The notes below the pieces were generated by a model. That model saw nothing but the letters and a program-made list of their open reading frames with translations. It was not told where the DNA came from and made no database searches. Below are positions 6,218-40,036 of a DNA stretch of 64,000 bases, one piece after another; within the stretch, counting starts at the first letter, position 1, and each line of letters begins with the position of its first letter. Origin of the DNA: Desulfococcus multivorans. Lineage in GTDB: Bacteria; Desulfobacterota; Desulfobacteria; Desulfobacterales; Desulfococcaceae. The stretch is from NCBI RefSeq assembly GCF_001854245.1, contig NZ_CP015381.1, positions 2,763,001-2,827,000 of the forward strand. The letters are read 5' to 3'. The position numbers and the translations under genes were made by a program.

Positions 6218-6241
6218 GCCCGCGAGTTACGTTACGCGGGC
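6218..6241 (+). terminator. GC-rich hairpin after the first beta-oxidation run
   Basis: GCCCGCG and CGCGGGC form a perfect 7-bp stem with a 10-base loop, 16 bases after the stop of the 3-hydroxyacyl-CoA dehydrogenase. There is no clear T-run, so it could be a weak terminator or an mRNA-stabilising hairpin. Confidence 0.5.
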
Positions 6242-6365
6242 TTGAACATCCAACATTGATCTTTGATATTCTCGTAGACAGATATAGGCATCTCCAGCAA
6301 TTGAAGGACCTTATCGTGCAGAGTGTAGTAATTAAAAAAACTCAATTAAAAAGGATAATTCTTTT

Positions 6366-6971: not shown

Positions 6972-6972
6972 A

Positions 6973-15602: not shown

Positions 15603-15684
15603 TTGATGATCATATGTGATCTGCAGATATCTTTTGTTCAAGATCCATGGATTTACTTTGAATAAGAAAAGGGGGAATCACAGC

Positions 15685-17596: not shown

Positions 17597-17631
17597 CATG
17601 TCCTCCTGATATAACTTGTTCCATTTAAATA

Positions 17632-18465
17632 TTAAATTTCCTTTTGCGTGTATATCATCGGCATCCGCAACTCAAAGCAGGCACCGCATTCGTCATTCGT
17701 TTTTATGATAATGTCTCCCCCCATGTATCGTGCCATAATCTGGGAAGCAGCCAGTCCCAACCCATGTTTTTTCCGGATCAGATTATTTGGAGATGGTGTT
17801 GAACTCCGATCCCTGGCCCGTGCATACCGCTTAAAGATGAGATCATAGTGGGCTGGATCAATACCGGGCCCATCATCCATCACATCTACAACAAGGATAT
17901 CTTCAAATATATCGGTTTTGATATGTATGGTTTTTTTTCGGTATTGCAATGCATTTTTTATCAAATTCCCAAGTATTTGGCGGATTTTCACGACATCATG
18001 TTGAATCGTAGTCTGCTCCAGAGAATCGGATAAATCCAAAACAAGTCCATACGCTGCAAACTGCTGGATGGCTTCATCGTTGGTACAGCCATTCAGATCC
18101 CGGCAGCTGTAATCCGAAGTTAACTCCAGAGTGTCATTTATTGTGTGAAGAATAAGCATATCTGTCCGGAATTCAGAGGGTACGATATGGCCGGCCTCCG
18201 ACCTGCCGATTTCAAGCATTCCATACAGCATCTCACTTGCTTTCACCGCGTTTGTCAGGGAACGGTGAAGGACCTTCTCCAGTTTGGGTGAATACGGTCC
18301 ATACTTATCCGCCCGCTTCAGAAGCATTCTCATGTTGGATTCAATGACAGAAAGTGGATCTTTTAACTCATGCACCAGAAACTCCAGATCGATATTCTGG
18401 AAAAAATATTCGGATGAATCCGATTCAAGGTCTTTGTACTGACAGGTTTTATCTCGTGTTTTCAT
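17632..18465 (-). CDS. cytoplasmic sensor histidine kinase
   Basis: A 277-residue kinase without transmembrane segments. The HisKA segment FLVHELKDPLSVIESNMRML near residue 30 holds the phosphorylated His. The HATPase_c domain has the N box (LGNLIKNALQYR), G1 (DVMDDGPGID) and G2 (KKHGLGLAASQIMARYMGG). There is no sensor domain of its own, so it probably receives its signal from a partner, for instance the PAS/GAF kinase encoded upstream at 18655-20610. It is followed by the response regulator gene. A 17-bp dyad at 18499-18515 lies just upstream of the start. Confidence 0.88.
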   Translation of the reverse strand: MKTRDKTCQYKDLESDSSEYFFQNIDLEFLVHELKDPLSVIESNMRMLLKRADKYGPYSPKLEKVLHRSLTNAVKASEMLYGMLEIGRSEAGHIVPSEFRTDMLILHTINDTLELTSDYSCRDLNGCTNDEAIQQFAAYGLVLDLSDSLEQTTIQHDVVKIRQILGNLIKNALQYRKKTIHIKTDIFEDILVVDVMDDGPGIDPAHYDLIFKRYARARDRSSTPSPNNLIRKKHGLGLAASQIMARYMGGDIIIKTNDECGACFELRMPMIYTQKEI

Positions 18466-18498
18466 GTTTCCATTTCCATTGAACCTGCGGTTAAAAGA

Positions 18499-18515
18499 TT
18501 AGGACCTGGTCCTAA
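18499..18515. promoter_or_regulatory. perfect dyad, possible operator of the kinase-regulator pair
   Basis: TTAGGACCTGGTCCTAA is an inverted repeat with 8-bp arms, 34 bases upstream of the kinase start at 18465. A second small hairpin (TAACCG and CGGTTA, 18526-18542) adjoins it. Size and placement suit a dimeric repressor site. I cannot name the protein. Confidence 0.4.
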
Positions 18516-18654
18516 CTTCGCCCACTAACCGTTAAGCGGTTATTTTTAACTGGTTTCGTGATCGCGCGCCGGATGTTCCACATTGTTCAGGAAAAACTCG
18601 AAGAGATCGTGCGGTTTAGGCTCAAAGAATCGTTCAGCAGCTGTAATTCATCCG

Positions 18655-20660: not shown

Positions 20661-21956
20661 TTAATGATACCCAAGAAGCCTGGGTAAAAAGAGCACCATT
20701 TCCGGGAAATAGGTCAAAAATAATAGTGTGCCGATCTGTATGGCCAAAAACGGAATGACAGCCCGAGTCACATAGATTATATCCCGATTTGCCAGAGAAC
20801 CGGTAATAAACAGACTCACCCCCATGGGCGGCGTACAGTAACCGATGGCGAGGTTCACCGTCATAATCAGACCGAAATGCATTGGGTCCACATTAAACGG
20901 TCCTAATAAGGGTAAAAATACTGGACCAAGAATCAGGGTTGCTGAAATAATATCCATGAACATGCCAATGATCAGCAGTAACATATTCATTGCCATGAGG
21001 AAAACAAAGGGTGAATGGATGCTGGCCACCACAACCTCGGCCACCCTGTTGGGGATGTTTTCAAAGGTGAGATACCTGCCGAAACAAGTGGCGGACGCCA
21101 CAATCAGCAGCAAGGTTGCGCTGGTGACTGCAGAATAAACCGTGACATCCTTCGCATCCTTAAAATTTATAGCCTTGTAAATAAAAATCTCCACGAAAAA
21201 CGCATAGACACTGGCAACTACGGCTGCTTCATTGGCTGTGAACACGCCGGTAAATATACCGCCGAAAATGATCACAATGAGCATGATGGCCCAGAACCCT
21301 TCCTTCAATATATAGTATAACTGCCTGAAATTGGGTGCCGGCAACCGTTTGATATCCGTTCTGTTGTGATAGAGAATCCATGTGTATAGACAAACGCAGA
21401 CAATAATTATAAACCCCGGTATGAAACCGGTGATAAAAAGCCCTTCGAGAGACACGTTGCTGATCATGGAATAAAAGATCATGCTGATACTGGGCGGGAT
21501 GATAATCCCGAGGTTGGGAGATGTGGTCATCAGACCCAGGGTATAATCTTCATCATATCCGTTTTTAATCAATGCCGGAATCATAAAGCCGCCGAGGGCC
21601 ACCACGGTGGCGACAGCGGAACCGGAAATCGCGCCGAACAGGCCGCATCCGATAACCCCGGCCATGCCAAGGCCTCCCGGAAGCCAGCTGACCAGGGCAT
21701 TGGCAAGATTAATGAGCTTTTCAACCGTCTTTCCCTTGCTCATGATATTCCCGCAGAGAATAAAAAACAGGACGACTATCAGGGAAAAGTTATCAAGACT
21801 CCTGAAAAGTGTTTGAGCAAGCACTGCCAGAGGCATGTTCAAAAAAACCACAAACCCAATAGCAGCTGTAAAAAAGAGACAGAGGAATACGGGCACATAG
21901 GTCGTCATGCAGCCCAGAAGAATACATATAATTATCAAATCACTAATCTGCATCAA
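20661..21956 (-). CDS. dctM: TRAP transporter large permease (DctM type)
   Basis: A 431-residue integral membrane protein with about 12 hydrophobic segments and the DctM/SiaM signatures GCGLFGAISGSAVATVVALG, TTSPNLGIIIPPSISMI and GYCTPPMGVSLF. It is the ion-coupled transport subunit that, with DctQ and the periplasmic binding protein, imports an organic acid. It starts 16 bases after the dctQ stop on the same strand, and the kinase genes follow. The neighbouring CoA ligases suggest that the substrate is a carboxylic acid entering a CoA-dependent degradation route. Confidence 0.93.
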   Translation of the reverse strand: MMQISDLIIICILLGCMTTYVPVFLCLFFTAAIGFVVFLNMPLAVLAQTLFRSLDNFSLIVVLFFILCGNIMSKGKTVEKLINLANALVSWLPGGLGMAGVIGCGLFGAISGSAVATVVALGGFMIPALIKNGYDEDYTLGLMTTSPNLGIIIPPSISMIFYSMISNVSLEGLFITGFIPGFIIIVCVCLYTWILYHNRTDIKRLPAPNFRQLYYILKEGFWAIMLIVIIFGGIFTGVFTANEAAVVASVYAFFVEIFIYKAINFKDAKDVTVYSAVTSATLLLIVASATCFGRYLTFENIPNRVAEVVVASIHSPFVFLMAMNMLLLIIGMFMDIISATLILGPVFLPLLGPFNVDPMHFGLIMTVNLAIGYCTPPMGVSLFITGSLANRDIIYVTRAVIPFLAIQIGTLLFLTYFPEMVLFLPRLLGYH

Positions 21957-21972
21957 GATGGTCCTTTTTATT

Positions 21973-22449
21973 TCATTTTAAATCTTGAATCATCACCTGG
22001 ATTGTCCTGATGAAAATCAACACACCGGTAATCGGCATTATGGAGTAGATAATGACCAGAGGGATTTGCATGATAATGGTCTTCTGATTGGTCATGAACT
22101 GGAGATGGGTCATTTTGTATCCGTAATAGATCATCATGCAGGCAAAGATGAGCATGAGAATATTGGCATAATGCGTCAATACCGGTTTAAGCCGTGGAAA
22201 CATCTGAACAATGGCGTCAATGCGGATCATCGACCCTTTCTTGACTGCAACACTGGCGCCCAAAAAAGTGGAATAAATAATAACGATCCGGACCAGTTCT
22301 TCGCTCCATGCCAGAGTGTAGTTAAACAAACACCGCAGAGCCACATTGGCAAATAGAGATAAAAGTGCAGCAATAACAATAGCAAAAAGTGTCCACTCTT
22401 CAATTTTTGTCAAAAGCTCATCAAGTTTTTTAAAGGTTTTCCCAAGCAT
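21973..22449 (-). CDS. dctQ: TRAP transporter small permease (DctQ type)
   Basis: A 158-residue membrane protein with four hydrophobic helices and the DctQ pattern (LLSLFANVALRCLFNYTLAW followed by SEELVRIVIIYSTFLGASVAVKKG). It couples the binding protein to DctM. The next gene is dctM, 16 bases away. Upstream, 592 bases separate it from dctP. That gap contains a broken transposase gene, so dctQM may no longer be tightly co-transcribed with dctP. Confidence 0.9.
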   Translation of the reverse strand: MLGKTFKKLDELLTKIEEWTLFAIVIAALLSLFANVALRCLFNYTLAWSEELVRIVIIYSTFLGASVAVKKGSMIRIDAIVQMFPRLKPVLTHYANILMLIFACMMIYYGYKMTHLQFMTNQKTIIMQIPLVIIYSIMPITGVLIFIRTIQVMIQDLK

Positions 22450-22648
22450 AAACCAATCCCCGTTAACCTGATTATTGTTTATCGATTCCAGTTAGTTTTA
22501 AAACATACATGCCGGGTCAGAGCTAAACTCCTGGGACAGGATACTGTCGGAAGCCCCATCTGAGTCTTGCACCATGCGGTCCAGTTTTCACTGGTAACTC
22601 TTTTACCGTAGTATTTGTGAGAAACCAAAGGTGACAAAGCAAAAGCAG

Positions 22649-23023
22649 TCATACAAGGTCTCTCATCTTCACTTTGATCATGTAATGGTTAAAAAGGGCC
22701 CCAATCTCAGCCCCTGCCCGTAAGATGGGCAGGGGACTGATATGCTTGGCACAGGCAGGTACGTTCATGGCCGGCATCAAGATGGCATCCGCAGGGCTGT
22801 AGGTGGCTTTTTCACTCCGATGGATAATGATGTGCTGCTACATCAGCTTATCCAGCCCAAGCTTTTCTGCAAAGCGTGCCAAGTGTAACAGCCCTGCGTT
22901 GTCGGCAAGGTCTTGCTCAGAAAACTGAACATCAAACCTTGATAGATTTTTGATGTCTGCAATGAATGTCAATTTGAAGGCTTCAATACCGATCTCCAAA
23001 TCGTATAAAGATATTGTCGCCAT
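22649..23023 (-). pseudogene. IS1380-like transposase N-terminal fragment with in-frame stop
   Basis: The reading frame on the minus strand begins MATISLYDLEIGIEAFKLTF and continues FSEQDLADNAGLLHLARF, the start of an IS1380-type transposase as I know it. After 61 codons there is a TAG. The same frame then continues as HIIIHRSEKATYSPADAILM to a TGA at 22649. The catalytic part is missing. It lies between dctP and dctQ. The remaining gap (22450-22648) holds nothing I recognise. Confidence 0.65.
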
Positions 23024-23041
23024 CGTATTGCAATTTCAATG

Positions 23042-24121
23042 TCATTTCAAAAAATCCTGAACTTCCTTCAGGAAATTGGCAGGTTTATAGGTGTCACCCG
23101 GATAAATCCTATTGATTTCAGGTGCATACTTTTCATAGACATCCATGCTCTGCTTTTTTAAGATTGCCATTTCTTCATCGGAAAGTTTGAAGAACTCAAC
23201 ACCGGCTTCGGCCTTTGCCGCATCGATGTTCTCCTCTTCCCATTTGGCCGTGGCCTTCCTGTTTTCAGCACATACATCGTGAACCGTCTGGATAAATATG
23301 GTTTTCAGGTCTTCCGGCAGACTATCTATCCAGGCTTTGTTGAAAATCCAGATAAAAAGCCCCTGGGCATAATTGATCTGGGTAAAGTATTTGGCAACCT
23401 CGAACTTTTTGGTAATCATGCAGACTGCGGGAGTATGGTCAAGACCGGTGATAACCCCCTGTTTCAGGGCCACCTGTACGTCAGGCCAGGGCATGGAAAC
23501 CGGGTTGAAACCCCATGTCCCGTATGTGAGAAAGTTTACGGCAGCTTCCGCAATTCTGAATTTAACTTTTCTGGCATCATCAATGGTTTTCACCGGAGTG
23601 GTGGTTGCCCAGCCATAGTTGCCATAGCCGGTAATATCGAGTCCTGTGATCCCCTGATGATCCATTCCCATCAAGAAGTGGTCAAACAATTTTTTATTGG
23701 AAACAAATTTATCCAGTTTTTCAAAAGAATCAATCAGGAAAGGCAGGTTGACCACACCGAACCTGGGTCCAAGGTTTGTGGAGGCAACCGATGAAACACC
23801 CATCCCCTGAACAGCACCCATTTGCACCATATTCAACACTTCCACCTCGCCGCCGAGGATTGAATAGGGCTTAAAATCAATGTAAATCTGTCCATTGGTT
23901 CTTTTCCAGAGTTCATCACGCATCTGGAACCCTGCATAAGTCCCTACAAGGGCCGGCGCAGAAACATTTGAAACAACGCACTTATACTTTGCACCCTTGG
24001 GGTCGAAATCGGGTTTCCATTTGTCAAGCGACAATTTTTCCTCTGCAGACGATGGAGAAACCAGCATAATTGATCCCACGATTAAAACAAGCAGCAATAC
24101 TAAAATTCTACGGAGTGCCAT
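23042..24121 (-). CDS. dctP: TRAP transporter periplasmic solute-binding protein (DctP type)
   Basis: A 359-residue exported binding protein. The signal peptide is clear (basic MALRRI, then a leucine/valine-rich core, cleavage after SPSSA near residue 26). The mature part shows the DctP/SBP7 fold signatures, including KVKFRIAEAAVNFLTYGTWG, which carries the conserved carboxylate-binding arginine, and PWPDVQVALKQGVITGLD. It delivers an organic acid anion to DctQM. It is the first gene of the transporter set on the minus strand, downstream of the two CoA ligase genes and separated from them by about 580 bases with IS debris. Confidence 0.92.
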   Translation of the reverse strand: MALRRILVLLLVLIVGSIMLVSPSSAEEKLSLDKWKPDFDPKGAKYKCVVSNVSAPALVGTYAGFQMRDELWKRTNGQIYIDFKPYSILGGEVEVLNMVQMGAVQGMGVSSVASTNLGPRFGVVNLPFLIDSFEKLDKFVSNKKLFDHFLMGMDHQGITGLDITGYGNYGWATTTPVKTIDDARKVKFRIAEAAVNFLTYGTWGFNPVSMPWPDVQVALKQGVITGLDHTPAVCMITKKFEVAKYFTQINYAQGLFIWIFNKAWIDSLPEDLKTIFIQTVHDVCAENRKATAKWEEENIDAAKAEAGVEFFKLSDEEMAILKKQSMDVYEKYAPEINRIYPGDTYKPANFLKEVQDFLK

Positions 24122-24703: not shown

Positions 24704-26284
24704 TTAAGCGAGCTGTTTAAAGGCTTCTCGTCTTCCAGTATATTTTTCTCTGAGCACCGGCTTCATCACTTTTCCGGTCGCGCTGCGTGGAATTTCGTCA
24801 AAAATAACCTTGCGAGGCGCTTTGTAAGTCGCTATTTTTGATTTGGCATACTCGATAAGTTCCGCTTCAGTCATTTTTTTGCCCGCTTTGAGTTGAACCA
24901 CCGCCAGTACGATTTCAACCAGGCGATCATCCGGATATCCGATACAGGCCACATCTTCTATATCAGGGTGATCCATGAGCGCATCTTCGATTTCCACCGG
25001 AAAAATGTTTTCTCCGCCGCTGGTTATCATATCCTTCATTCGGTCAACAATGTAGTAAAAACCTTCTTCATCGGTTTTCAACAGATCGCCCGTCCGGAGC
25101 CATCCGTCTTGAATGGTGGCGGCGGTCATTTCCGGATTACCATGATATTCTTTCATCATACGTTCTGTTGAAAAGAGCAACTCACCGACCGAACCGCTGG
25201 GCAGTTCACTGCCGTCCCAATCAATAATCTTTGCCTCCACGCCATAGGTCGGTTTCCCAATGGAGCCGGGTTTTTTTAAAACATCTTCAGGATAGAGATT
25301 GAACAGGCCTCCGCCGCCACCTTCCGTAATGCCGTAAATGTTTGATACGCCGCAGGGCAGGGTCTCAACCAGCTTTTTCATAATGTCGAAGGGCACGGGC
25401 TGAGCACCGATTTCCATGTAACGCCAGGCCGATAAATCATAGTCAGCCAGGTTGATGGTGCCGTCGTCAATGGCATTCAGTGCCATGATGGCTATCGGTA
25501 CGACAAAAAGGGTGTCAGTGCATTTTTCTTCCGCCAGAGCATCGAAGATATATCTTGCATTGTTGAATTCCCGAAGTATGGTGCCCGTTGCCCCAGTGGC
25601 GTAAAACGGCGCCCATAAAAACATGGTACCGCTGTGAAACAGCGGCAGAAAAATGAGATAGTTGTCATTTTTTTCGACAAAATAGGACATGCCGTTTCCG
25701 GCAGCCGTGTTTTTCATGGAAAAATGGGTGTGCATTACCGGTTTGGGCTTTCCGGTCGTACCCGAGGTGAACATCATGGCAAGATCATGATGGTCCGCCA
25801 CATCGACCATTGCATCCGAGGAATCATCGTATGCATCTACTTTTGCATAGTCGATCATATCATCAGGAACGGTATCGCCGATGCAGATATACTTTCGGAT
25901 TGTTTCAAGTTTTTGCTGAATTGGCTGCACCACCTTTAAAAACTCGGAGCCGAGGAGAAAAACCTGGGGGTTACAAACTTCCGCTGCATACAACACATCG
26001 GCGCTTTCAAACCTGAAATTCAGGGGCACGACGATTGCCCCCAGGCGAATGATGGCAAAATAGGTAATCAGCCATTCAAGAGAGTTGTTTTGAAGGTGCA
26101 TGATCTTATCACCGTCTTTGACGCCACATTCCTTGGCCAGATAATTGGCAACGCGGTTGATGGCGTCATTAAACTGCTTCCAGGTGAGCGTCCTTCGTTT
26201 TTCAATCGAGGGAGTTCGCTCAATAAGGCAAATCTTGTTGGAATGGTGACGAGCGTTTATGGCGGCATATTTAGAGAAGTTCAC
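24704..26284 (-). CDS. AMP-forming acyl-CoA synthetase, paralogue A
   Basis: A 526-residue ANL ligase with the P-loop LAMMFTSGTTGKPKPVMHTH near residue 170, the motif GITEGGGGG in place of the usual YGxTE context, RTGDLLKTDEEGFYYIVDR and the C-terminal lysine motif RSATGKVMKPVLREKYTG. It activates a carboxylic acid to acyl-CoA. The long glycine run at the substrate-binding turn is unusual and may shape the acyl pocket. It lies 200 bases after a second ligase gene on the same strand, next to a TRAP transporter and downstream of the 2-oxoacid cluster. Candidate substrates are aryl-acids, 2-hydroxy acids or fatty acids. I cannot choose between them. Confidence 0.88.
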   Translation of the reverse strand: MNFSKYAAINARHHSNKICLIERTPSIEKRRTLTWKQFNDAINRVANYLAKECGVKDGDKIMHLQNNSLEWLITYFAIIRLGAIVVPLNFRFESADVLYAAEVCNPQVFLLGSEFLKVVQPIQQKLETIRKYICIGDTVPDDMIDYAKVDAYDDSSDAMVDVADHHDLAMMFTSGTTGKPKPVMHTHFSMKNTAAGNGMSYFVEKNDNYLIFLPLFHSGTMFLWAPFYATGATGTILREFNNARYIFDALAEEKCTDTLFVVPIAIMALNAIDDGTINLADYDLSAWRYMEIGAQPVPFDIMKKLVETLPCGVSNIYGITEGGGGGLFNLYPEDVLKKPGSIGKPTYGVEAKIIDWDGSELPSGSVGELLFSTERMMKEYHGNPEMTAATIQDGWLRTGDLLKTDEEGFYYIVDRMKDMITSGGENIFPVEIEDALMDHPDIEDVACIGYPDDRLVEIVLAVVQLKAGKKMTEAELIEYAKSKIATYKAPRKVIFDEIPRSATGKVMKPVLREKYTGRREAFKQLA

Positions 26285-26483
26285 GGTTAACCTCCTGTTA
26301 AATGTTTCACAAAAGAAACGCCACGATTGACAATAAACCTCTGTCTATGCACATGCTGAATCAATATGGGCATTGAGCCGTTCTGTACTCAACCCGGTGC
26401 CCTACGGTTGAATTCCGCGTATTAAAAACAAAAAATGACGAAAGAAGAAAAAAATAAACGACAAAATATATTATTACAGGAGA

Positions 26484-28040
26484 TTATGCCAAATACCGAT
26501 CCTTAAGTTTTCGATGCAGGATTTTACCCGTTGGCGTTCGAGGCATTTCATCGCTTTTGATAAAGATTATCTCTTTAGGACGTTTATAGCTGGCGAGCTT
26601 TACCCGACAGCAGTCTTGAATGTCTTTCTCGTTGATGTCTTTTTCGTCTACACCGTCTTTGAGGGCTACGACGGCCACGATTTTTTCTCCCCACTTTTCA
26701 TCCGGCAGACCAATGCAGGCACAGTCGAATACACATTCATGGCTGCCCACGACCTCTTCCACTTCGCTGGGGTAGACATTTTCCCCACCGGTAATGATCA
26801 TGTTGTTTTTTCTGTCTACAATGTAATAATATCCGTCTTCGTCCTTCCTGCCCAAATCCCCGGCGGAGAACCAGCCGTTTTTGAACGACTCGAGGGTTTT
26901 CTCAGGTAATTTATAGTATTCGTCAAAAAGCATGGGGCCCCGGGAAAAAATTTCTCCCACCTCACCGGTGGCAACTTCATTGCCTTCAAAATCCAAAATT
27001 TTTACGAAATCGGTGCCCAGGGTTTCCTGACCGATGGAACCGGCTCTGGATATCTGATCCTCGGGCTTGAGCACGGTGACACATCCGGCTTCCGTAGAGC
27101 CATATCCTTCATATAGTTCGGCGTTGGGGAAAAAGGTCATGATAGCCCGTTTCATCTTTTGTCGAACAGGCGCTGAGGAGCAGAGCAGTTTTCGAATAGA
27201 GCTGACATCTCTCCTGCGGTTGCCCTCGTCCACATTTAAAATCAGGTTGTAATGGGTCGGTATGAGCGAAATAAAGGTAATCTTTTCCTCTTCAACAATC
27301 TTGAGCAGTTCCGGTGCCTTGAAGGAGAGGGCCGGGTGAACGTAGACAGAGCCGCCCAGATAAAGGAAGATAAAGGTATAGAAGGTAGAGTTGATGTGGC
27401 AAAGGGGCATGATGTTCAAACAATAATCGCGGTCGTTGAACCCCATCTCCAAGCCGTTGATCAAATAATAGGCGATGTGAGATTCATGGGAGCGAATCAC
27501 CCCCTTGGGCTTGCCGGTGGTGCCGGACGTATAGATCAATATCCACGTGTCCTCCGGCTTGACGCTTACATCCGGCTCTTTATCCGGACGGCCTGAGATG
27601 AACCTTTCGTATTCCAGATAGCCGGCGCTTTCACCGCCCACAATCACATAGTTCTGCGGTGCAATCTTCTCGAGATTTTTTTTAATCGGGTCGATGATCT
27701 CAGCGAATTGTGCTTCCACAATCATGGCCTTGGCATCGGAGTTGTTTACGATATATTCCACCTCCCGGCCCACCAGCCGAAAATTGATCGGGACAATGAT
27801 GATGCCGGTTTTGGCCGTGGCCAGGTAGACTTCGATTATTTCGATGCAGTTGTCCATAAACACGGCCACTTTGTCGCCCTTTGACAGGCCGAGATCCATA
27901 AGACAATGGGCCAGTCGGTTTACACGCCGATTGGTTTCCGCATAGGTAAAGCTGCGTGTTTGGTCTTTCAACACCAATTTGTTGGCATACTTCTTTGCAT
28001 TAACCTTAAAATGCTGTCCCAGATTCATCCAGTGCGCCAT
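26484..28040 (-). CDS. AMP-forming acyl-CoA synthetase, paralogue B
   Basis: A 518-residue ANL ligase with ILIYTSGTTGKPKGVIRSHE, YEGYGSTEAGCVT, FSAGDLGRKDEDGYYYIVDR and the C-terminal RTPTGKILHRKLKDRYL. The sequence is distinct from paralogue A, so the two probably activate different acids. It starts 16 bases after the stop of the HgdB-like gene at 28057 and is preceded by GGGGAGG, so it is surely in that operon. The position right behind a 2-hydroxyacyl-CoA dehydratase-type protein and a PanE-type reductase suggests that it makes a 2-hydroxyacyl-CoA or an enoyl-CoA. That is inference from context only. Confidence 0.9.
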   Translation of the reverse strand: MAHWMNLGQHFKVNAKKYANKLVLKDQTRSFTYAETNRRVNRLAHCLMDLGLSKGDKVAVFMDNCIEIIEVYLATAKTGIIIVPINFRLVGREVEYIVNNSDAKAMIVEAQFAEIIDPIKKNLEKIAPQNYVIVGGESAGYLEYERFISGRPDKEPDVSVKPEDTWILIYTSGTTGKPKGVIRSHESHIAYYLINGLEMGFNDRDYCLNIMPLCHINSTFYTFIFLYLGGSVYVHPALSFKAPELLKIVEEEKITFISLIPTHYNLILNVDEGNRRRDVSSIRKLLCSSAPVRQKMKRAIMTFFPNAELYEGYGSTEAGCVTVLKPEDQISRAGSIGQETLGTDFVKILDFEGNEVATGEVGEIFSRGPMLFDEYYKLPEKTLESFKNGWFSAGDLGRKDEDGYYYIVDRKNNMIITGGENVYPSEVEEVVGSHECVFDCACIGLPDEKWGEKIVAVVALKDGVDEKDINEKDIQDCCRVKLASYKRPKEIIFIKSDEMPRTPTGKILHRKLKDRYLA

Positions 28041-28056
28041 GGTTTACCTCCCCATT

Positions 28057-29316
28057 TTATTTCATCTCTTCCAGTTGTTCGATAAATGCTTCGACGTTGG
28101 TTTTGGTCTGTTCATCAGAAAGACACCTCAGGTCGTTTAAATCGCCGTCCATGATGACAAATGGAATGCCTGTCTTCCTGAAAAGGCGCTGCGGCATACC
28201 GTAAAGGCAATTGGTGTTGTTGGGGCAGGTGCGGGCATTATGGTAGAGAATGCCGTCACAACCAAATACATCCAATTTGTCCTGGATATATCTTTCTTTG
28301 TAGGCATCATTCCGGACAATAAACAGCTCCGTGTACGCCCGAGCCATACTCTTGAACGGATCTGACGGATCCAGCGCAGAAAAAATCCAGCTGCTGCAGT
28401 AGGTGGATGCAATGACATTGGCATTCAATTCGGCAAACATCTTCGAGTGCATCCCCAATCGACCCCACACCGGCATGCCGTCCCAATAAAGGCGATATTT
28501 CTCCTCACCGACAAGGGCGCCTTCTCCGGCGTTGACCCGTTCTTCAAGCTCGTCCAGGAGCAGCCGGTACATTTCAACGGCTTTCAGCGTACCGCGACCC
28601 ACCACAGCCGGTCCCATCAGGGTCGTCCCATCAAAAAACGTCAGGGGTGCGGGTTTTGCAGACGCCGTTGCCAGACATTGTGCCCAAAGATCCGAGCATT
28701 CCCGTGACAGCGCCACGGCCTGCTTAAACGCATCCATATCGAGCTTGCAACCGGCAAGTTCCTCCAGCGGTGCAACCAGATTTTCAATTTGCGAGGCAAT
28801 GGAGTCGATGTGGAAATCGGTTATCTCGCCAACGGACCGGTAGGATTCGATACCGACGACCGGCACATTGAATTTATCACCATACCAATTGAACCAATCC
28901 AGAACATCGCGACACTGGTTGGTATTGTAGACGAGGACATCCGGTTTGGGGACAGACGTTATCCCTTTATATGCGGCGGACAGTGGTGTGATGCCTTTTA
29001 CGAAGGCACCGATGTCGGCCGTCAGGTATGAGCAGATCTCCGGGGAATATCCCATGGCGTTGGCCGTGGGAATCAGGTCGGTGGCCATTCGCGTGGCGCC
29101 CAGCATGGCCGCGTGGGTCTCGGGGAAGTAGATCAGGTACCCCAGGCCACGCAGCAGTTCCGCCGGTCCCACGCTCGTGCACCAGGCGATTTTCCGCTTT
29201 CCGGAAATAGCCGCTTCGTTCAACTCATAGTAATAATCGGCCATGAACCGGCTCAGGTCCTTGGCGGATTTAAGACGTCTCAAGATCTGTTTGGTTTCGT
29301 GTGCCATGTCAGTCAC
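28057..29316 (-). CDS. 2-hydroxyacyl-CoA dehydratase / benzoyl-CoA reductase family protein (HgdB/BcrB/DCCP-like)
   Basis: A 419-residue iron-sulfur protein of the HgdAB/BcrBC/FldBC superfamily. Visible landmarks are the early IAWCTSVGPAELLRGLGY, the segment PDVLVYNTNQCRDVLDWFNW, ANVIASTYCSSW and FGCDGILYHNARTCPNNTNC. The cysteines in these segments are the likely cluster ligands. Only one such subunit is present, next to one ATP-dependent activator (4-base overlap). Two-subunit dehydratases and four-subunit class I benzoyl-CoA reductases are therefore not complete here. Alternatives are a homodimeric double-cubane cluster protein, as known from Carboxydothermus and E. coli YjiM, or a dehydratase that recruits a second subunit from elsewhere. 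Confidence 0.78.
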   Translation of the reverse strand: MTDMAHETKQILRRLKSAKDLSRFMADYYYELNEAAISGKRKIAWCTSVGPAELLRGLGYLIYFPETHAAMLGATRMATDLIPTANAMGYSPEICSYLTADIGAFVKGITPLSAAYKGITSVPKPDVLVYNTNQCRDVLDWFNWYGDKFNVPVVGIESYRSVGEITDFHIDSIASQIENLVAPLEELAGCKLDMDAFKQAVALSRECSDLWAQCLATASAKPAPLTFFDGTTLMGPAVVGRGTLKAVEMYRLLLDELEERVNAGEGALVGEEKYRLYWDGMPVWGRLGMHSKMFAELNANVIASTYCSSWIFSALDPSDPFKSMARAYTELFIVRNDAYKERYIQDKLDVFGCDGILYHNARTCPNNTNCLYGMPQRLFRKTGIPFVIMDGDLNDLRCLSDEQTKTNVEAFIEQLEEMK

Positions 29317-30122
29317 TCGTTATCACTTGTTTGGGTTGCTTTTGCATACAGGGCGGCGCCGATGGCGCCGGCCAGTTGCGGAAACGGCGGCGTCCATACG
29401 CGTCTCCCGATTTGTTCTTCGCTTAAATCGATCAGGTAAGGATTATGGGCCACCACCCCACCAGTCATGACAACCTTTTCCGTCAGAGAATCCATCTCCA
29501 GAACACGCCGAATCACGGAAACAAAGAGCCCTTTGATGATATCCTGAACTTTTTTACCATGGCGGATATATTCCAGCACTTCGGTGGCACTGAATACGGT
29601 GCAGTAGCTGCCGATATTGACGGTTTCGGTGGATTTTCTGGCCAATCCGTCCATATCGGATAGTGGAATATCAAGACGGGTTGCCATCTCTTCCAGAAAA
29701 GCACCCGTGCCGGCAGCGCATTTGCGGTTCATCTTGAAACTGATGCGTCTGCCGTTTGAATCCAGTTTGATTATTTTATTATCCTGTCCACCGATGTCGA
29801 TCACGGTGATGGCTTCCGGGAAATAAAAATAGGAGCCCTTGGCATGGCACCCGATTTCCGTGTGGGTTCCGGATGCGAAAGTTACATTGTGACGCCCATA
29901 CCCCGTGGATACGGTATGAGCCACCTGGTCCGCCGTACAGTCGGCCATTTGCAAGGCGTCGGCAAGACACATTTCGGCAGTGGCCGAAAAATTCACGCCC
30001 GATTTGCGGACCCCATGACCGCGGAGGTGTCCGGCAGTATCGATCAGGGCAACCTTGGTGTGTGAGGCACCCACATCGACGCCCGCATAGACCGCCTTTT
30101 CTATTGAATATGTTTTGCTCAT
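29313..30122 (-). CDS. ATP-dependent activator / archerase of the HgdC-BcrD-FldI family
   Basis: A 269-residue ASKHA-fold ATPase. The phosphate-1 motif YAGVDVGASHTKVALID lies at the N-terminus and VIDIGGQDNKII in the middle. The two cluster cysteines are in MNRKCAAGTGAFLEEMA and NIGSYCTVFSATEV. The adenosine motif is VVMTGGVVAHNPYL. A homodimer would hold one [4Fe-4S] cluster between the subunits and drive ATP-coupled electron injection into the partner protein. The stop/start overlap with the HgdB-like gene (ATGA) indicates translational coupling with exactly that partner. Confidence 0.9.
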   Translation of the reverse strand: MSKTYSIEKAVYAGVDVGASHTKVALIDTAGHLRGHGVRKSGVNFSATAEMCLADALQMADCTADQVAHTVSTGYGRHNVTFASGTHTEIGCHAKGSYFYFPEAITVIDIGGQDNKIIKLDSNGRRISFKMNRKCAAGTGAFLEEMATRLDIPLSDMDGLARKSTETVNIGSYCTVFSATEVLEYIRHGKKVQDIIKGLFVSVIRRVLEMDSLTEKVVMTGGVVAHNPYLIDLSEEQIGRRVWTPPFPQLAGAIGAALYAKATQTSDNE

Positions 30123-30159
30123 AGTACCCGATGGTAAGTGTTCATCTGCCGCCGGTATC

Positions 30160-30177
30160 GCCGGTTGTACAACCGGC
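30160..30177. promoter_or_regulatory. perfect 18-bp palindrome upstream of the activator gene
   Basis: GCCGGTTGTACAACCGGC reads the same on both strands. It lies between the PanE-like gene and the activator gene, 38 bases before the activator start. It may be an operator or an mRNA hairpin that separates the two parts of the operon. Confidence 0.4.
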
Positions 30178-30230
30178 CCTCAACAGATTCCCGCCGCCAA
30201 CGATTGCGACGGCCTCGAGGTGATCGCAGG

Positions 30231-31190
30231 TTACCTGCGAGCTTCCATGCTGAATTCTATACCCTTGATCAACGATCGCATGGTGTTGTTGTAGGGTGTC
30301 TGGATGCCGGCTTGCGCGCCGTATTCCACGATTTTTCCATTGATATAATTGATCTCGGTTCGCCGGTGGGCTTCGATATCCATCAACATCGATGGTTTAT
30401 GGTGACCTGCATTTTTCAAGTAGTCCAATGCATTCTGGTAGTAATCCCACCCCACATGGATTTCATTGGCCCGCGCCACGGCCAGGCATTCCTTGATTAA
30501 CGCATCAATGACGCTGAAGGTCATTGGATCGCCCATGGCCTGGGCCATGGTCAGACCGGTTGCCGCGCATACAGGGTTCATGGACGCATTCATAATGGTC
30601 TTTCGCCAGACCATGGGAACCACCTGGTTCGTATGTTCGGTGTGAAGTCCGCTGTTTGAAAGATCATCGGCAATATGTATGGCAGCATCCCCGGCTGCGG
30701 GATCGAGTTCCTGAATATAGTGAGGCGGATGATGAAATGCCATAGTGACATGTGCCGGGCCCAGGAATCCACATCCCCAGTTTACGACTGCCCGCATTAC
30801 CGGCTTTTTGCCGAGCACGTTTGCGATTTCGTATTCCGTATCAATACCGTTTTGCCAACTGACGACAAAAATTCCTTCCTTGTAGATATCCCCCAGTGCA
30901 GATGAGATGAGCGGCAATGCCTGGGCCTTGACACAGATAAAAATGGCATTCGGCTCAGCGGCGATCAAATCTTCAATATGATTGCACGTATGGGTTATTT
31001 TCTGTTCAAGGCGTTCCGCGCCTTCAATAATAACGCCCCTGTCTCTGGCAGTATCAACCAGCTCGGGGACAATGTCGCAAAGGGTTACTTTGTGCCCACC
31101 TCGGGCAAGAAATGCCGCCACAATGCACCCAACCGGTCCGGCGCCGATAATGCCATAATGCCAAGGATGATTTTGATTCGTTTTGCCCAT
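30231..31190 (-). CDS. PanE/ApbA-family 2-oxoacid reductase
   Basis: A 319-residue NAD(P)-dependent reductase of the ketopantoate reductase family. The Rossmann motif IIGAGPVGCIVAAFLA is at residues 14-29. FICVKAQALPLI and VVSWQNGID follow. The catalytic lysine region is MVWRKTIMNASMNPVCAATG, and the helical C-terminal domain has HHKPSMLMDIEAHRRTEI. Besides ketopantoate reductase (coenzyme A synthesis), the family includes D-2-hydroxyacid dehydrogenases acting on bulky 2-oxoacids. Its place between the ACT protein/Ior genes and the HgdC/HgdB pair makes the second option attractive: reduction of an aryl- or alkyl-pyruvate to the (R)-2-hydroxy acid. This is inferred. Confidence 0.82.
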   Translation of the reverse strand: MGKTNQNHPWHYGIIGAGPVGCIVAAFLARGGHKVTLCDIVPELVDTARDRGVIIEGAERLEQKITHTCNHIEDLIAAEPNAIFICVKAQALPLISSALGDIYKEGIFVVSWQNGIDTEYEIANVLGKKPVMRAVVNWGCGFLGPAHVTMAFHHPPHYIQELDPAAGDAAIHIADDLSNSGLHTEHTNQVVPMVWRKTIMNASMNPVCAATGLTMAQAMGDPMTFSVIDALIKECLAVARANEIHVGWDYYQNALDYLKNAGHHKPSMLMDIEAHRRTEINYINGKIVEYGAQAGIQTPYNNTMRSLIKGIEFSMEARR

Positions 31191-31220
31191 GGAAACCTCT
31201 TCGAGTTGTTCTTGTCGATT

Positions 31221-31655
31221 CTATTCGCGGATATCAAATATCGTCGCGTCCAAAATTCTTATGCCGTTTTCCTTCAGCACCTCAATAGCCCTGTCATTGT
31301 CGGAAAAGCAAAAAATCATAACGGCACTTCCGGCAGATGACCCTATATAGGCATACATGAATTCAATTCGTATGCCGGCCTTCAACAGCGGCAGCATTAC
31401 ATTCGCTAGACTGCCCGGCTCGTCAGGTATTTCCGTTGCAACCACCTCATTGACAAATGCAGGAATGCTCATCTCCATCAGTATTCGCCGTGCTTTGGCA
31501 GTATCGGATACCAATAGACGAAGTTGGCCGAACGCACCCGTGTCGACAAGATTCAGGGCTCGCAGATTGATGCCGGCATCACCCATCGCCTTTATGACAT
31601 TGTATAGACGAGTCGGCGAGTTTTCGATCGAAATAACAATTTGTTTGAGTTTCAT
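31221..31655 (-). CDS. tandem ACT-domain protein
   Basis: A 144-residue protein made of two ACT domains (KQIVISIENSPTRLYNVIKA at residue 3, and EIPDEPGSLANVMLPLLKAG near residue 75). ACT domains bind amino acids and change the activity of a partner. I start it at the ATG at 31655 because AGAGG lies at good distance. An ATG six codons upstream has no RBS. Small ACT proteins are often encoded next to indolepyruvate oxidoreductase genes in deltaproteobacteria and archaea, as here with iorAB upstream. The likely ligand is an aromatic or branched-chain amino acid, which would sense supply to this pathway. Confidence 0.82.
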   Translation of the reverse strand: MKLKQIVISIENSPTRLYNVIKAMGDAGINLRALNLVDTGAFGQLRLLVSDTAKARRILMEMSIPAFVNEVVATEIPDEPGSLANVMLPLLKAGIRIEFMYAYIGSSAGSAVMIFCFSDNDRAIEVLKENGIRILDATIFDIRE

Positions 31656-31808
31656 CACAACGCCTCTTTCCACTGTTTTTTAAGAATTGATTGGTTCTGA
31701 ACCCATCGCTGTTTTAGAAGCTCTCAACACGAGGCAAACCGTATTTAATTAAACAGAATAATATTTTCATTTCAGTTAATTAGGAAATATCGACATTTAT
31801 CATGGCGA

Positions 31809-32399
31809 CTATGCAACGTCGCGACCTTTATCAAATGCCACCAGATTCAATTCCTTAAATTTGGGCGGCACACGCTCGACAATCACTGCTTTCCAAGCAT
31901 CGAGGGGGAGATCCAGCATGGTTGAGGCGATGCCGAGTAAAATGGTGTTCACCAGTCTGGGATTGCCGAGTTCTTCGGCCATAGGCAGCGCATCCACAAA
32001 AACGGGATCGGCGGTTCGCTGTCTGATAACGGCTTGGGCATCTTCAGGATAGCTTCCCATGCCGGCATAAACAGCCGGCGGTATTATTTTCTGCAGGCTG
32101 GTGATCACCCGTCCGGTGGGCCTCAAGAAATGGAGCCACCGCAACGCTTCCGACAGTTCAAAGGAAAGCAGAATGTCCGCCTCGCCCTGCATAATCATGG
32201 GCGAGGCAACATTTTCACTATAGCGCACATGGCTCGTCACCACGCCGCCTCGCTGGGACATGCCGTGGATTTCACTCTTCTTGGCGTCAAATCCGCTGCG
32301 CATGGCCACGTCCGATAAAATCTCACTGGCCGTTATCACGCCCTGGCCACCGGTACCGACCACCAGAACGTTGACTGTTTTCTTATTTTCCCGAGTCAT
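31809..32399 (-). CDS. iorB: indolepyruvate:ferredoxin oxidoreductase, beta subunit
   Basis: A 196-residue gamma-type domain of 2-oxoacid:acceptor oxidoreductases, with the N-terminal VVGTGGQGVITASEIL and the segment GMSQRGGVVTSHVRY. It partners IorA, whose gene ends 36 bases upstream. The complex converts aryl pyruvates (indolepyruvate, phenylpyruvate, 4-hydroxyphenylpyruvate) plus CoA to arylacetyl-CoA and CO2 while reducing ferredoxin. AAGGAGAAAAAA precedes the ATG. Confidence 0.92.
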   Translation of the reverse strand: MTRENKKTVNVLVVGTGGQGVITASEILSDVAMRSGFDAKKSEIHGMSQRGGVVTSHVRYSENVASPMIMQGEADILLSFELSEALRWLHFLRPTGRVITSLQKIIPPAVYAGMGSYPEDAQAVIRQRTADPVFVDALPMAEELGNPRLVNTILLGIASTMLDLPLDAWKAVIVERVPPKFKELNLVAFDKGRDVA

Positions 32400-32435
32400 T
32401 TTTTTCTCCTTTTGGAGGGGTCAACGCCGGCCATA

Positions 32436-34244
32436 TCATTCTGGCACGCAAACAATTGCATTCGATGTGCACACCTGCTCGCAAAGACCACATCCATAAC
32501 AGGTCGCCGCATCGATGTACGAGTAGCGACGTTCTTTTTTATCCGCTTCATCAGGAATGATATCTCCCTGGGAAATGGATGGACAGCCAAGCTTGAGGCA
32601 GCGTTTACAGCCGATGCAGGCATCCGTGTCCACAACCCGTACGGCTTGCGGGTCCTGGCGAAACAGTTGGACACAGGGACGCTTGGTGACCAGCACAGAT
32701 GGTCCGTCATGGGCAATTTCCTCCTTCAACGCAGCAATGGTACCTTCCAGGTCAAAGGGATCGATCTCTCTCACACGTTTGCATCCCAGTGCACGGACAA
32801 TCTCCATGATGTCGACGGCGTAAGTTTCCTGCATCTGAAGAGTGCGCCCGGTGCCGGGATTCTGCTGTCCCCCGGTCATGGCCGTAATGCGGTTGTCCAG
32901 GATAACCACATTCACGTTACCTTTATTGTAGATGACATCCATCAGGCTGGTGATGCCGGAGTGAAAGAAAGTGGAGTCGCCAATGGCGGCAAATACCGGA
33001 CGTTGGTCTTCCAGTCCGGCCATGGCCATGGCTTTTGCCGTGCCGTGGGCCATACTGATGCTCGCCCCCATGCAAAGTGTGGAATCGATGCTTTGCAAGG
33101 GCGGCAACACACTCAAGGTGTAGCAGCCAATATCGCTGTGAACGATGGCCTTCATTTTATTCAAGGCATAAAACAAGCCTCTGTGAGGACAGCCGGCACA
33201 GAGCAGCGGCGGCCGAGGCATATCACCTCCCGGTGCTTTTTCCCGGTCTGGCGGAAGATCGTAAGGCAATACGCCGGCTTCTGCAAAGCCGGCGGCCACG
33301 ACATCTGGAGACAGTTCATCCAACCTGGGGAAAAAAGCCTTGCCTTCAACGGCCAGTCCCATGATTCGGATTTCATCTTCGATGTACGGTTCCAGTTCTT
33401 CCACTACAAAGAGGCGATCGACCTTGCCGGCGAATTCTTTTATCTTCTTTATTGGCAACGGAAAGGTCATTCCCAACTTCAGAATCGAAGCATCCGGCAT
33501 GATTTCTCTTACGTACTGATAAGCGATGCCACTGGTGATAATGCCAATCTTGTTGTCATTCCATTCGATTCTGTTAAACGCCGTGGTTTCGGCAATGTCC
33601 TTCAGTTTTTCTTCCCTTTCAAGGACCAGGGGATGCCTCAATTTTGCAAACGCCGGAATCATGACGAATTTCTTCAGATCACGCTTAAATCCTTCCGCAA
33701 CCGGTATGTCCGCTTGAATCTCCGCATCAAGTTGGACAATGCTCTTGGAATGACAAACCCGGGTGGTGATGCGCAACATGGTGGGGGAATCATACTTCTC
33801 GGACAGACGCAGCCCTTCTTCGACCATTTCCTTTGCCTCCTGGCTGTCGCTGGGCTCCAGCATGGGGATTTTGGCGAACTTGGCATAAAAGCGGTTGTCC
33901 TGCTCATTTTGGGAACTGTGCATACCCGGGTCATCCGCACATACTATCAGGAGACCACCGGGAATGCCGGTATAGGCAAGGGTCATCAATGGGTCCGCAG
34001 CCACGTTCAGTCCCACATGCTTGGTAGTGAACAGTGTTCGAACGCCCGTCATAGCGGATCCGATCGCCACTTCAAGCGCCACCTTTTCGTTGGGAGCCCA
34101 TTCTGCATAAACACCCTTATAGGTAGCAAAATTCTGCAATATTTCTGTGCTTGGTGTTCCTGGATAGCCGCTTGCCACCTTTACACCGGCCTGGAATGCA
34201 CCCAGCGCGACCGCCTCATTTCCTGAAAGGATCTGTTTTTTCAT
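32436..34244 (-). CDS. iorA: indolepyruvate:ferredoxin oxidoreductase, alpha subunit
   Basis: A 602-residue thiamine-diphosphate enzyme. The N-terminal pyrimidine-binding part contains GYPGTPSTEILQNFA. The pyrophosphate-binding part is around GDSTFFHSGITSLMDVIYNK and VVILDNRITAMTGGQQNPGT. The C-terminus has ferredoxin-like cysteine motifs CIGCKRCLKLGCPS and CYGCGLCEQVC for two [4Fe-4S] clusters. The length is typical of IorA. The start at 34244 has AGGGG seven bases upstream. It heads a minus-strand series iorA-iorB-ACT-panE-like-hgdC-hgdB-ligase B-ligase A with mostly short gaps, driven by the promoter at 34566-34594. It supports anaerobic use of aromatic amino acids. Confidence 0.94.
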   Translation of the reverse strand: MKKQILSGNEAVALGAFQAGVKVASGYPGTPSTEILQNFATYKGVYAEWAPNEKVALEVAIGSAMTGVRTLFTTKHVGLNVAADPLMTLAYTGIPGGLLIVCADDPGMHSSQNEQDNRFYAKFAKIPMLEPSDSQEAKEMVEEGLRLSEKYDSPTMLRITTRVCHSKSIVQLDAEIQADIPVAEGFKRDLKKFVMIPAFAKLRHPLVLEREEKLKDIAETTAFNRIEWNDNKIGIITSGIAYQYVREIMPDASILKLGMTFPLPIKKIKEFAGKVDRLFVVEELEPYIEDEIRIMGLAVEGKAFFPRLDELSPDVVAAGFAEAGVLPYDLPPDREKAPGGDMPRPPLLCAGCPHRGLFYALNKMKAIVHSDIGCYTLSVLPPLQSIDSTLCMGASISMAHGTAKAMAMAGLEDQRPVFAAIGDSTFFHSGITSLMDVIYNKGNVNVVILDNRITAMTGGQQNPGTGRTLQMQETYAVDIMEIVRALGCKRVREIDPFDLEGTIAALKEEIAHDGPSVLVTKRPCVQLFRQDPQAVRVVDTDACIGCKRCLKLGCPSISQGDIIPDEADKKERRYSYIDAATCYGCGLCEQVCTSNAIVCVPE

Positions 34245-34565
34245 TCTATAGCCCCTGTAAGTATTCTGCCAAAGTTAAGCATGCGCTTCGTATCGATTGA
34301 CGGAAGCATATAGTCTTTCAGATTAACACTCTTATGCTCAAACCGAACCTCATCCTTGTACGACGATGATCTCCAAACATGCGGTTCAGGATCTGCAGGA
34401 TTTTTTCCTGGGAGTCAGTGGCCCGAAAAACCATTGCCGATGCCGACAGCACAGACTTGTTTCCAAACGATTAATGGCACGATAGATAAAACGAAGAACC
34501 CGAATGCTGGCCGCGGCCGACCCAATAAATTATCTTATTGCGATAACAAGCTATCGTTAAGTGAG
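34245..34565 (-). other. long leader of the ior operon, related to the leader at 10941-11259
   Basis: Read on the minus strand, the leader starts CTCACTTAACGATAGC and contains TTGGAAA, GTCGGCATCGGCAATG, CCGCATGTTTG and TTCGGTTTGA (34347-34338), in the same order and spacing as in the other leader. CGATA and TATCG (34541-34556) form an inverted repeat right after the promoter. A frame without an obvious start ends in an ATGA overlap with iorA, so a short upstream peptide is conceivable. Confidence 0.5.
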
Positions 34566-34594
34566 AATTTACCAAGGCTTGATTTGCGTGTCAA
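34566..34594 (-). promoter_or_regulatory. sigma70-type promoter (P2) of the ior operon
   Basis: On the minus strand TTGACA (34589-34594), 17-base spacer, TAAATT (34566-34571), preceded by ATATTTTTC. It matches P1 at 10912-10940 through the -10 box and for a further 14 bases, with few differences. Confidence 0.7.
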
Positions 34595-39753: not shown

Positions 39754-40036
39754 AAGGAAAAGGGCCTGTGCCTGCACTGATGGTTCGATGCCGCCAACCC
39801 TGATCCCGCCGCCCTGACTGTCTTATGCATTATCAGCGGCCTTTCCCGGGTTGCTGCCCTGCAAATCGCCGCGATTCGCTGCGAACCCAAATGCTCGAGC
39901 AAATCACCTGATCGGGATCGCCTTTCAGGTGATGAAAAAAGATTCTACAATCAGTCGTATGATACGGCGACTGACAGGATGACGGTATCTGAAACTGACT
40001 ATACACAAAAAGATGGCTTGCAAGGAGGTTAACGAC
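39754..40036 (+). other. intergenic region between dch and oah with inverted repeats
   Basis: Two inverted repeats stand out: TCACCTG/CAGGTGA (39904-39932), which could be a hairpin after dch, and CAGTCG/CGACTG (39952-39973), 64 bases before the oah start, which could be an operator. I see no convincing -35/-10 pair or -24/-12 element. Confidence 0.4.

Follow-up and report, generated by a model that had tools for sequence, protein, structure and literature searches.

The genome of the sulfate reducer Desulfococcus multivorans, a bacterium of sea sediments (4,455,399 bases) carries an eight-gene operon with an apparently single-subunit 2-hydroxyacyl-CoA dehydratase. Together with the adjoining plus-strand gene cluster, this operon is proposed to specify the conversion of arylpyruvate to benzoyl-CoA by way of phenyllactyl-CoA dehydration, and we put the probability of this reading at roughly 0.68. 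The operon occupies positions 24704-34594 of the window, the whole stretch of 64,000 nucleotides that was analysed (positions 2763001-2827000 of contig NZ_CP015381.1); positions below are those of the window. A first-pass annotation had described the same genes as a Stickland-like 2-oxoacid branch. Many of its parts are plausible, including the pathway enzymes and an uptake role for the nearby TRAP transporter, while the fate that it gave the product, a Stickland electron sink, is probably wrong.

The putative dehydratase and its cluster site

The central gene of the operon (28057..29316, minus strand) encodes an HgdB/HadB-type protein with an HGD-D domain (195.3 bits, cut-off 28.4). Its nearest solved relative by sequence was HadB, the alpha subunit of 2-hydroxyisocaproyl-CoA dehydratase (3o3m_A, 3.4e-58). 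HadB also ranked first by fold when a predicted monomer (pLDDT 80.9) was compared with solved structures (Z 39.4, root-mean-square deviation 2.5, 384 aligned residues, 28% identity), followed by BzdO (Z 35.8), MbdO (33.0), DCCP (27.5) and HadC (26.5).

Conservation of the site was followed in 114 loci with an ortholog, made up of a set of 34 and a set of 80. These loci comprise 94 distinct sequences, of which 68 have at least 3 kb on both sides. The set of 80 was the best 80 of at least 567 confirmed relatives and held 79 distinct ortholog sequences, L159 and L160 being two records of one contig. The cluster cysteines Cys95, Cys135 and Cys364, as well as Glu66 and Ser48, were kept in all 114 loci. 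They align with Cys95, Cys128, Cys380, Glu65 and Ser44 of BzdO, the functional roles of which are described in PMC11971306. The position of the BzdO acid/base residue His131 was occupied by Val138 in 114 of 114 loci. The sequence features point to the HGD-D fold and three-cysteine cluster site of an (R)-2-hydroxyacyl-CoA dehydratase alpha subunit.

Among four families compared, the HadB equivalog NF052455 gave the best score, 233.8 bits, below its cut-off of 750. The class I benzoyl-CoA reductase profiles TIGR02260 and TIGR03191 reached 142.7 and 75.6 bits (cut-offs 486.55 and 448.6), and the double-cubane-cluster profile NF040772 reached 48.6 bits (cut-off 350). The cysteine of the GLCGGA stretch of DCCP, a presumed cluster ligand, had no counterpart in the operon protein. 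Identity as a benzoyl-CoA reductase or a DCCP was set aside on the family scores and the valine in place of His131.

A putative dehydratase without a detectable beta subunit

Two-component dehydratases are described as alpha-beta heterodimers (PMC11574389, PMC8473912), in which the cluster of the beta subunit holds an electron between turnovers (PMC11574389). A partner profile derived from 18 orthologs together with the L082-L084 alpha genes detected a second HGD-D gene in none of the 114 ortholog loci (up to approximately 10 kb on each side). Among 20 control loci, which carry other alpha-type genes (approximately 5 kb on each side), 15 had one. The same profile also detected a second HGD-D gene in four further loci. 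The five control genes with no beta partner within approximately 5 kb (L186, L187, L188, L190 and L199) perhaps form a second single-subunit group or have a partner that was missed.

Genome-wide, the only HGD-D genes of D. multivorans were the operon gene and one DCCP pair (L079, at 1.712-1.731 Mb of the genome, G000), which scored 472 and 466 bits against the cut-off of 350 and has an activase of its own. This pair adjoins an ABC sugar-type transporter, as judged by eye. Among five other genomes in which all HGD-D genes were collected, two carried the ortholog alone (G029 and G139) and one the ortholog and a single DCCP (G115).

The alpha-only group was also marked by three extra cysteines. 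Cys46 was present in 113 of the 114 loci and both Cys207 and Cys307 in every one; the numbers in the 20 control alpha-type proteins were 0, 1 and 0, respectively. Cys307 has an aligned cysteine in DCCP and in beta subunits; Cys46 is displaced by one position from another such cysteine. A full double cubane formed by the extra cysteines was considered and dropped because one DCCP cysteine has no counterpart, and no cluster is claimed.

By gene content, the dehydratase looks alpha-only, with no second subunit, a point that the first-pass annotation overlooked. The protein may be a homodimer in which Cys46, Cys207 and Cys307 share in electron storage, the task of the beta cluster in the known enzymes.

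Organization of the operon

The eight open reading frames (ORFs) were all intact and all on the minus strand, and profile scores agreed with the families first guessed for them. In the order of transcription they encode IorA, the alpha subunit of an arylpyruvate:ferredoxin oxidoreductase (32436..34244; TIGR03336, 708.8 bits, cut-off 650.9); IorB, its beta subunit (31809..32399; NF005322, 250.6 bits, cut-off 237; POR domain); a tandem ACT protein (31221..31673; PF19571 ACT_8, 66.3 bits, cut-off 23.5), which is likely a sensor of an amino acid or arylpyruvate; a PanE/ApbA-type 2-oxoacid reductase (30231..31190); an HgdC/HadI-type activase (29313..30122); the dehydratase; AMP-forming acyl-CoA ligase 1 (26484..28040; PF00501 and PF13193); and AMP-forming acyl-CoA ligase 2 (24704..26284; PF00501). 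From IorA to ligase 2, the intergenic gaps were 36, 135, 30, 108, -4, 16 and 199 bp, so that the activase and dehydratase genes overlap by 4 bp. A single promoter for all eight genes had been assumed and could not be confirmed: a promoter-like hexamer pair at 34594-34566 fits 10 of 12 positions, and such sites were not clearly enriched (26 observed compared to 18.7 +/- 4.5 expected). The 199 bp gap ahead of ligase 2 and a gap of 582 bp ahead of the TRAP transporter genes could be transcript breaks.

The activase passed its family profile (TIGR00241, 208.3 bits, cut-off 125.4) and matched HadI (PDB 4eht, 2.3e-49), with Cys135 and Cys174 aligned to cysteines of the 4eht chain. The dehydratase appears to be accompanied by its own ATP-dependent activase. 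These families make it plausible that a sulfate reducer has a 2-oxoacid pathway with a PanE-type reductase, a ligase and an activator-dependent dehydratase, as had been suggested.

The PanE-type protein scored 190.4 bits against TIGR00745, the ketopantoate reductase superfamily (cut-off 141.35), and keeps K88, N114, K197, S267 and E279. Many of its other positions differ from the other panE of the genome, and residues common to the PanE enzymes of the clusters are absent from that second protein. The pathway would have been in doubt if the operon enzyme acted on ketopantoate alone in a genome with no other panE. A second ApbA/PanE was found elsewhere in the genome, just upstream of a panB-like ORF, which we take to be panB from inspection by eye. 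A ketopantoate role for the operon enzyme is considered less likely on this ground, and the enzyme is proposed to be a phenylpyruvate reductase.

Conservation across genomes

Among 194 genomes of the order, 118 had a match to the dehydratase at E 1e-20 and 67 had an ortholog (at least 50% identity); these 67 include four partial genes (G003, G050, G118 and G189) and one with an in-frame stop (G063). Partner genes were counted when more than half of the query was aligned at the set identity, so that short or cut genes, such as the cut ligase 2 gene of L086, were missed. In the set of 34 loci the most frequent partners were HgdC (29), PanE (27), an NDP-forming ligase (ACD; 25), ligase 1 (25) and thiolase (20), and the rarer ones were Ior (16), the ligase PaaK (14), ACT (11) and ligase 2 (2). 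In the set of 80 loci, many of which are cut by contig ends, HgdC was found in 72, PanE in 59, ACD in 51 and ligase 1 in 47, followed by Ior (30), PaaK (28), thiolase (28) and ligase 2 (6). The common order was ACT or PaaK, PanE, HgdC, HgdB, ACD, ligase 1 and thiolase, with ACD usually between HgdB and ligase 1 (for example at L047:10387-12510). The neighbourhood search that had been proposed for panE-hgdC-hgdB-ligase was successful in that the grouping recurs in many genomes, which argues that it is not due to chance.

The 80 loci were labelled Desulfobacterota (with Geobacter), Chloroflexi/Anaerolineae, Thermoplasmatota and other archaea, Spirochaetes, Planctomycetota, Ignavibacteria and Proteobacteria; most come from metagenome-assembled genomes, and some labels may be binning errors. 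Two Ior lineages, approximately 40% identical, occupy the same cluster position.

Counterparts of ligase 1 (at least 50% identity) were found in 47 of the 80 loci. Those of ligase 2 (at least 60% identity) were found in six, none of which had PaaK. Among the 30 loci with Ior, 21 had PaaK only, five had ligase 2 only, four had neither and none had both. Because PaaK and ligase 2 never occur together in these loci, ligase 2 probably replaces PaaK and is proposed to be a phenylacetate-CoA ligase, which would leave ligase 1 as the proposed phenyllactate-CoA ligase.

Link to the benzoyl-CoA pathway

BamA was found above its cut-off in 52 of the 67 genomes with an ortholog, compared to 11 of the 127 genomes without one (Fisher odds ratio 36.6, p 1e-22, kinship ignored). 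PadE was above its cut-off in only one of the 194 genomes, and that genome had no ortholog. In an Anaerolineae locus (L112), a stretch of 15 kb carries on a single strand BamA (549.6 bits), a BamQ-type gene (TIGR03201, 487), the fused hydratase/dehydrogenase, HgdB, ACD, ligase 1, PanE, HgdC and thiolase. In an alphaproteobacterial metagenome-assembled genome (L153), BcrA and BcrD share a locus with HgdC-HgdB and lie upstream of the activase gene, at a distance of approximately 7 kb.

Neighbouring genes in the window

The adjoining plus-strand cluster includes a 3-hydroxyacyl-CoA dehydrogenase ORF (12176..13030; 37.7% identical to the fused enzyme), which is Hbd5 by gene order. It is followed by a fused 3-hydroxyacyl-CoA dehydrogenase/enoyl-CoA hydratase (13549..15591; Dmul_C24740 by gene order) and a thiolase (15616..16875; Dmul_C24750 by gene order; 61.7-76.1% identical to the thiolases of 20 loci). 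The fused gene is nearly identical to a copy at 7112-9154, which has the family matches: 678 of 680 residues are the same (99.7%), with 99.3% DNA identity over 2207 bp, which indicates a recent duplication. YaaH-like transporter ORFs and an ORF resembling a transposase remnant were noticed by eye near the duplicated genes. The two thiolases of the window are 73% identical. If the twin copy, assigned to cinnamate in PMC5109826 (matched by gene order), acts in that route, the product of 13549..15591 should manage the same step, and it is proposed to be a cinnamoyl-CoA hydratase/dehydrogenase; the thiolase is proposed to act on benzoylacetyl-CoA. By gene order, the acyl-CoA dehydrogenase at 1921-3762 falls in the cinnamate cluster.

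On the minus strand, downstream of the operon, lie the TRAP transporter genes DctPQM (20661..24121; DctP PF03480), which adjoin the cluster in four of the 80 loci, and then ORFs for a CheY-like regulator and two sensor kinases (17039..20610; PAS/GAF/HisKA in 18655-20610), gene types that are also named in PMC5109826. On the other side of the operon, positions 35427-37313 encode a protein that resembles CoA-transferases and, in its C-terminal part, acetyltransferases (TIGR03948 and NF058543 matches below their cut-offs). It is followed on the plus strand by a dienoyl-CoA hydratase-like gene (38986-39753; TIGR03189, 165.3 bits, below the cut-off of 292.5) and by BamA/Oah of the benzoyl-CoA pathway (40013-41170; TIGR03200, 572.1 bits, cut-off 464.45).

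Published proteomics of the region

The region is already known as a phenylacetate/phenylpyruvate module, being tied to the catabolism of these compounds by proteomics in PMC5109826. The locus tags of that paper, and its IorA3B3, were assigned to window genes by gene order only; on this basis, the window IorAB is inferred to be IorA3B3, and Dmul_C24850-70 correspond to HgdB-HgdC-PanE or HgdC-PanE-ACT. The TRAP transporter, named DctM4Q4P4 there, was formed specifically on phenylacetate and phenylpyruvate, which makes the uptake role first suggested for it plausible. One of two alternative ligases, Hbd5, the hydratase and the thiolase were formed on both substrates, and IorA3B3 was phenylpyruvate-specific. 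The paper further states that phenyllactate supports growth (data not shown there), that D. multivorans oxidises its substrates completely, that it has class II benzoyl-CoA reductase genes, and that no PadB or PadEFGHI was found, the step to benzoyl-CoA being called unclear. Its main text describes no dehydration, the word dehydratase occurring there only in one reference title.

Proposed route

In the route outlined here we infer the substrates, the stereochemistry, the homodimer and the direction of IorAB. The TRAP transporter would take up the substrate, and the PanE-type enzyme would reduce phenylpyruvate to (R)-phenyllactate. One of the AMP-forming ligases, ligase 1 being the most likely, would convert this to phenyllactyl-CoA. 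The ATP-driven activase would give the HgdB-type protein one electron, and the latter would dehydrate phenyllactyl-CoA to cinnamoyl-CoA through ketyl-radical chemistry of the kind established for HadBC. The fused hydratase/dehydrogenase would then form benzoylacetyl-CoA, the thiolase would cleave it to benzoyl-CoA and acetyl-CoA, and the Bam enzymes would take benzoyl-CoA onward. The dehydrogenase, hydratase and thiolase are the set required by cinnamoyl-CoA, which supports a cinnamoyl-CoA route.

IorAB and ligase 2 (PaaK elsewhere) would connect phenylacetate with phenylpyruvate, in either direction. The forward direction, from phenylpyruvate to phenylacetyl-CoA, is assumed in PMC5109826. According to PMC13285125, where an IOR of Bacteroides adjoins an AMP-forming arylacetate ligase, it may serve amino acid synthesis, as in methanogens, and IORs next to ADP-forming ligases are linked there to consumption of the acyl-CoA product. 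The two ligases of the operon are AMP-forming. With IorAB running in reverse, phenylacetate could join the phenyllactate route, which would account for the Pad enzymes being dispensable. In this extended form, phenylacetate would be activated to phenylacetyl-CoA by ligase 2 or PaaK; reversed IorAB, using reduced ferredoxin and CO2, would carboxylate this to phenylpyruvate, which would follow the cinnamoyl-CoA route to benzoyl-CoA and acetyl-CoA, with an alpha-only homodimeric dehydratase whose Cys46, Cys207 and Cys307 replace the electron storage of the beta subunit, perhaps via a second cluster. We advance this combination only tentatively and consider it the less probable outcome. Against it, Ior was not seen in 50 of the 80 loci and an NDP-forming ligase was present in 51; in PMC5109826, cells on phenylacetate had less IorA3B3 than cells on phenylpyruvate.

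Several observations weigh against the proposed route itself. Thiolase was found in only 28 and Ior in only 30 of the 80 loci, many of them cut. Five of the 34 loci, with distant orthologs (L074-L078, 52-61% identity), had no match to HgdC, PanE, ligase 1 or thiolase; two of them retain the NDP-forming ligase, and the role of this group may differ. ACD is absent from the window, and the best matches in a genome search were 38-39% identical, with no clear ortholog; beside Ior, ACD would rather suit the forward direction of that enzyme. Thermoplasmatota archaea carry the cluster, and no benzoyl-CoA gene was found in them with the queries used. The BamA statistics leave kinship aside, and 15 of the 67 ortholog genomes had no BamA above the cut-off, four of these having partial matches of 153-415 bits. 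The alpha-only reading is qualified by two of the five genomes searched for all HGD-D genes: the ortholog is accompanied by a HadB/HadC-like pair in G030 and by five further HGD-D genes in G107, so that a borrowed beta subunit is conceivable in both. The running text of PMC5109826, on which this comparison is based, does not list HgdB, HgdC or PanE as detected. Finally, with two differences in 680 residues, the copies of the fused enzyme are nearly indistinguishable in peptide data; the thiolases, at 73% identity, are separable.

Alternative explanations

The published interpretation of the region (PMC5109826) places the PanE-region enzymes in the oxidation of phenyllactate to phenylpyruvate, IorAB in the formation of phenylacetyl-CoA, and Hbd5, the hydratase and the thiolase in its conversion to phenylglyoxylate, with the last step unidentified there. 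The higher level of IorA3B3 on phenylpyruvate agrees with it. As set out in that text, it provides no dehydration step and leaves the last step without an enzyme. A hydratase and a thiolase seem ill-suited to alpha-oxidation to phenylglyoxylate, and no PadE match was found in the D. multivorans genome at E 1e-60. We regard it as unlikely, though as the best placed of the alternatives.

It is improbable that the HgdB-type protein is an ATP-driven reductase, similar to benzoyl-CoA reductase or DCCP, and not a dehydratase. It belongs to the same superfamily, as the BzdO and DCCP fold scores illustrate, its gene is often beside benzoyl-CoA genes, one of its extra cysteines aligns with a DCCP cysteine, and DCCP is homodimeric (PMC11971306). 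Against this stand the scores below the TIGR02260, TIGR03191 and NF040772 cut-offs, the valine at the His131 position in every ortholog locus, the missing counterpart of the GLCGGA cysteine, and the linkage of the gene to PanE and ligases. Moreover, hosts already have class II (D. multivorans, PMC5109826) or class I (L153) reductase genes.

A Stickland-like branch would dispose of electrons by reducing the enoyl-CoA to 3-phenylpropanoate, with the oxidation by IorAB as its counterpart in the redox balance; it appears slightly more improbable still. Its parts would be equal in kind to those of the reductive branch of Clostridium (PMC11574389), and archaeal loci, mostly from Thermoplasmatota, have HgdB, PanE and mostly HgdC and ligase 1, with no thiolase or Bam match. 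However, D. multivorans is a complete oxidiser with sulfate as acceptor, there is no enoyl-CoA reductase among the eight genes, and the thiolase, the fused hydratase/dehydrogenase and the benzoyl-CoA genes recur in the clusters. For these reasons the enoyl-CoA most likely continues to benzoyl-CoA. The archaeal loci concerned (L131, L141, L146, L152, L154 and L159) could represent a fermentative version.

Ior enzymes have a broad substrate range. The same chemistry on hydroxyphenylpyruvate, indolepyruvate or a branched-chain 2-oxoacid, to which the 2-hydroxyisocaproyl-CoA activity of the nearest solved relative might point, is very improbable given the formation of the proteins specifically on phenylacetate and phenylpyruvate, the growth on phenyllactate (PMC5109826) and the benzoyl-CoA genes nearby.

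Comparison with known systems and significance

The closest system of known structure is HadBC/HadI of Clostridioides difficile (3o3m, 4eht), with which the operon shares the alpha fold, the three cluster cysteines, the aligned glutamate and serine, and an ATP-driven activase. It differs in its 28% fold-alignment identity, in having no beta subunit that could be found, in its three extra near-invariant cysteines, and in having ligases and no CoA-transferase among the eight genes. FldABC combines a CoA-transferase with two dehydratase subunits and supplies a reduction to phenylpropanoate. FldABC/FldI of Clostridium sporogenes (FldABC is named in PMC13416013), compared by description and not by sequence, shares the proposed reaction from phenyllactyl-CoA to cinnamoyl-CoA; the operon differs from it in its ligases, its single subunit and the proposed oxidation to benzoyl-CoA. 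The Pad pathway of denitrifiers, from phenylacetyl-CoA through phenylglyoxylate to benzoyl-CoA, has the same start and end compounds with different chemistry. The phenylpropanoate/cinnamate beta-oxidation of D. multivorans (296-9154 by gene order) has the same proposed last steps and a near-identical hydratase/dehydrogenase; it is entered from cinnamate or phenylpropanoate, and the operon route from phenyllactate. For the benzene degrader BzS1, PMC13416013 gives a hypothetical sequence of phenylpyruvate, 2-hydroxyacyl-CoA, cinnamoyl-CoA and benzoyl-CoA. That branch serves benzene and runs via a 2-oxoacyl-CoA, with the dehydratase unassigned there; no set like that of the operon was found among the candidate genes named there. 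In the open-licence literature, no paper was found that joins the operon gene set to the phenylpyruvate-cinnamoyl-CoA-benzoyl-CoA sequence or that describes an alpha-only dehydratase.

The route would supply candidate enzymes, gene by gene in a cultured strain, for the stated gap between phenylacetate or phenylpyruvate and benzoyl-CoA. Because the gene set recurs in several bacterial phyla and in archaea, phenylalanine carbon may commonly leave by this route under anaerobic conditions. If true, a one-subunit 2-hydroxyacyl-CoA dehydratase would alter the view that this radical chemistry requires two unlike subunits.

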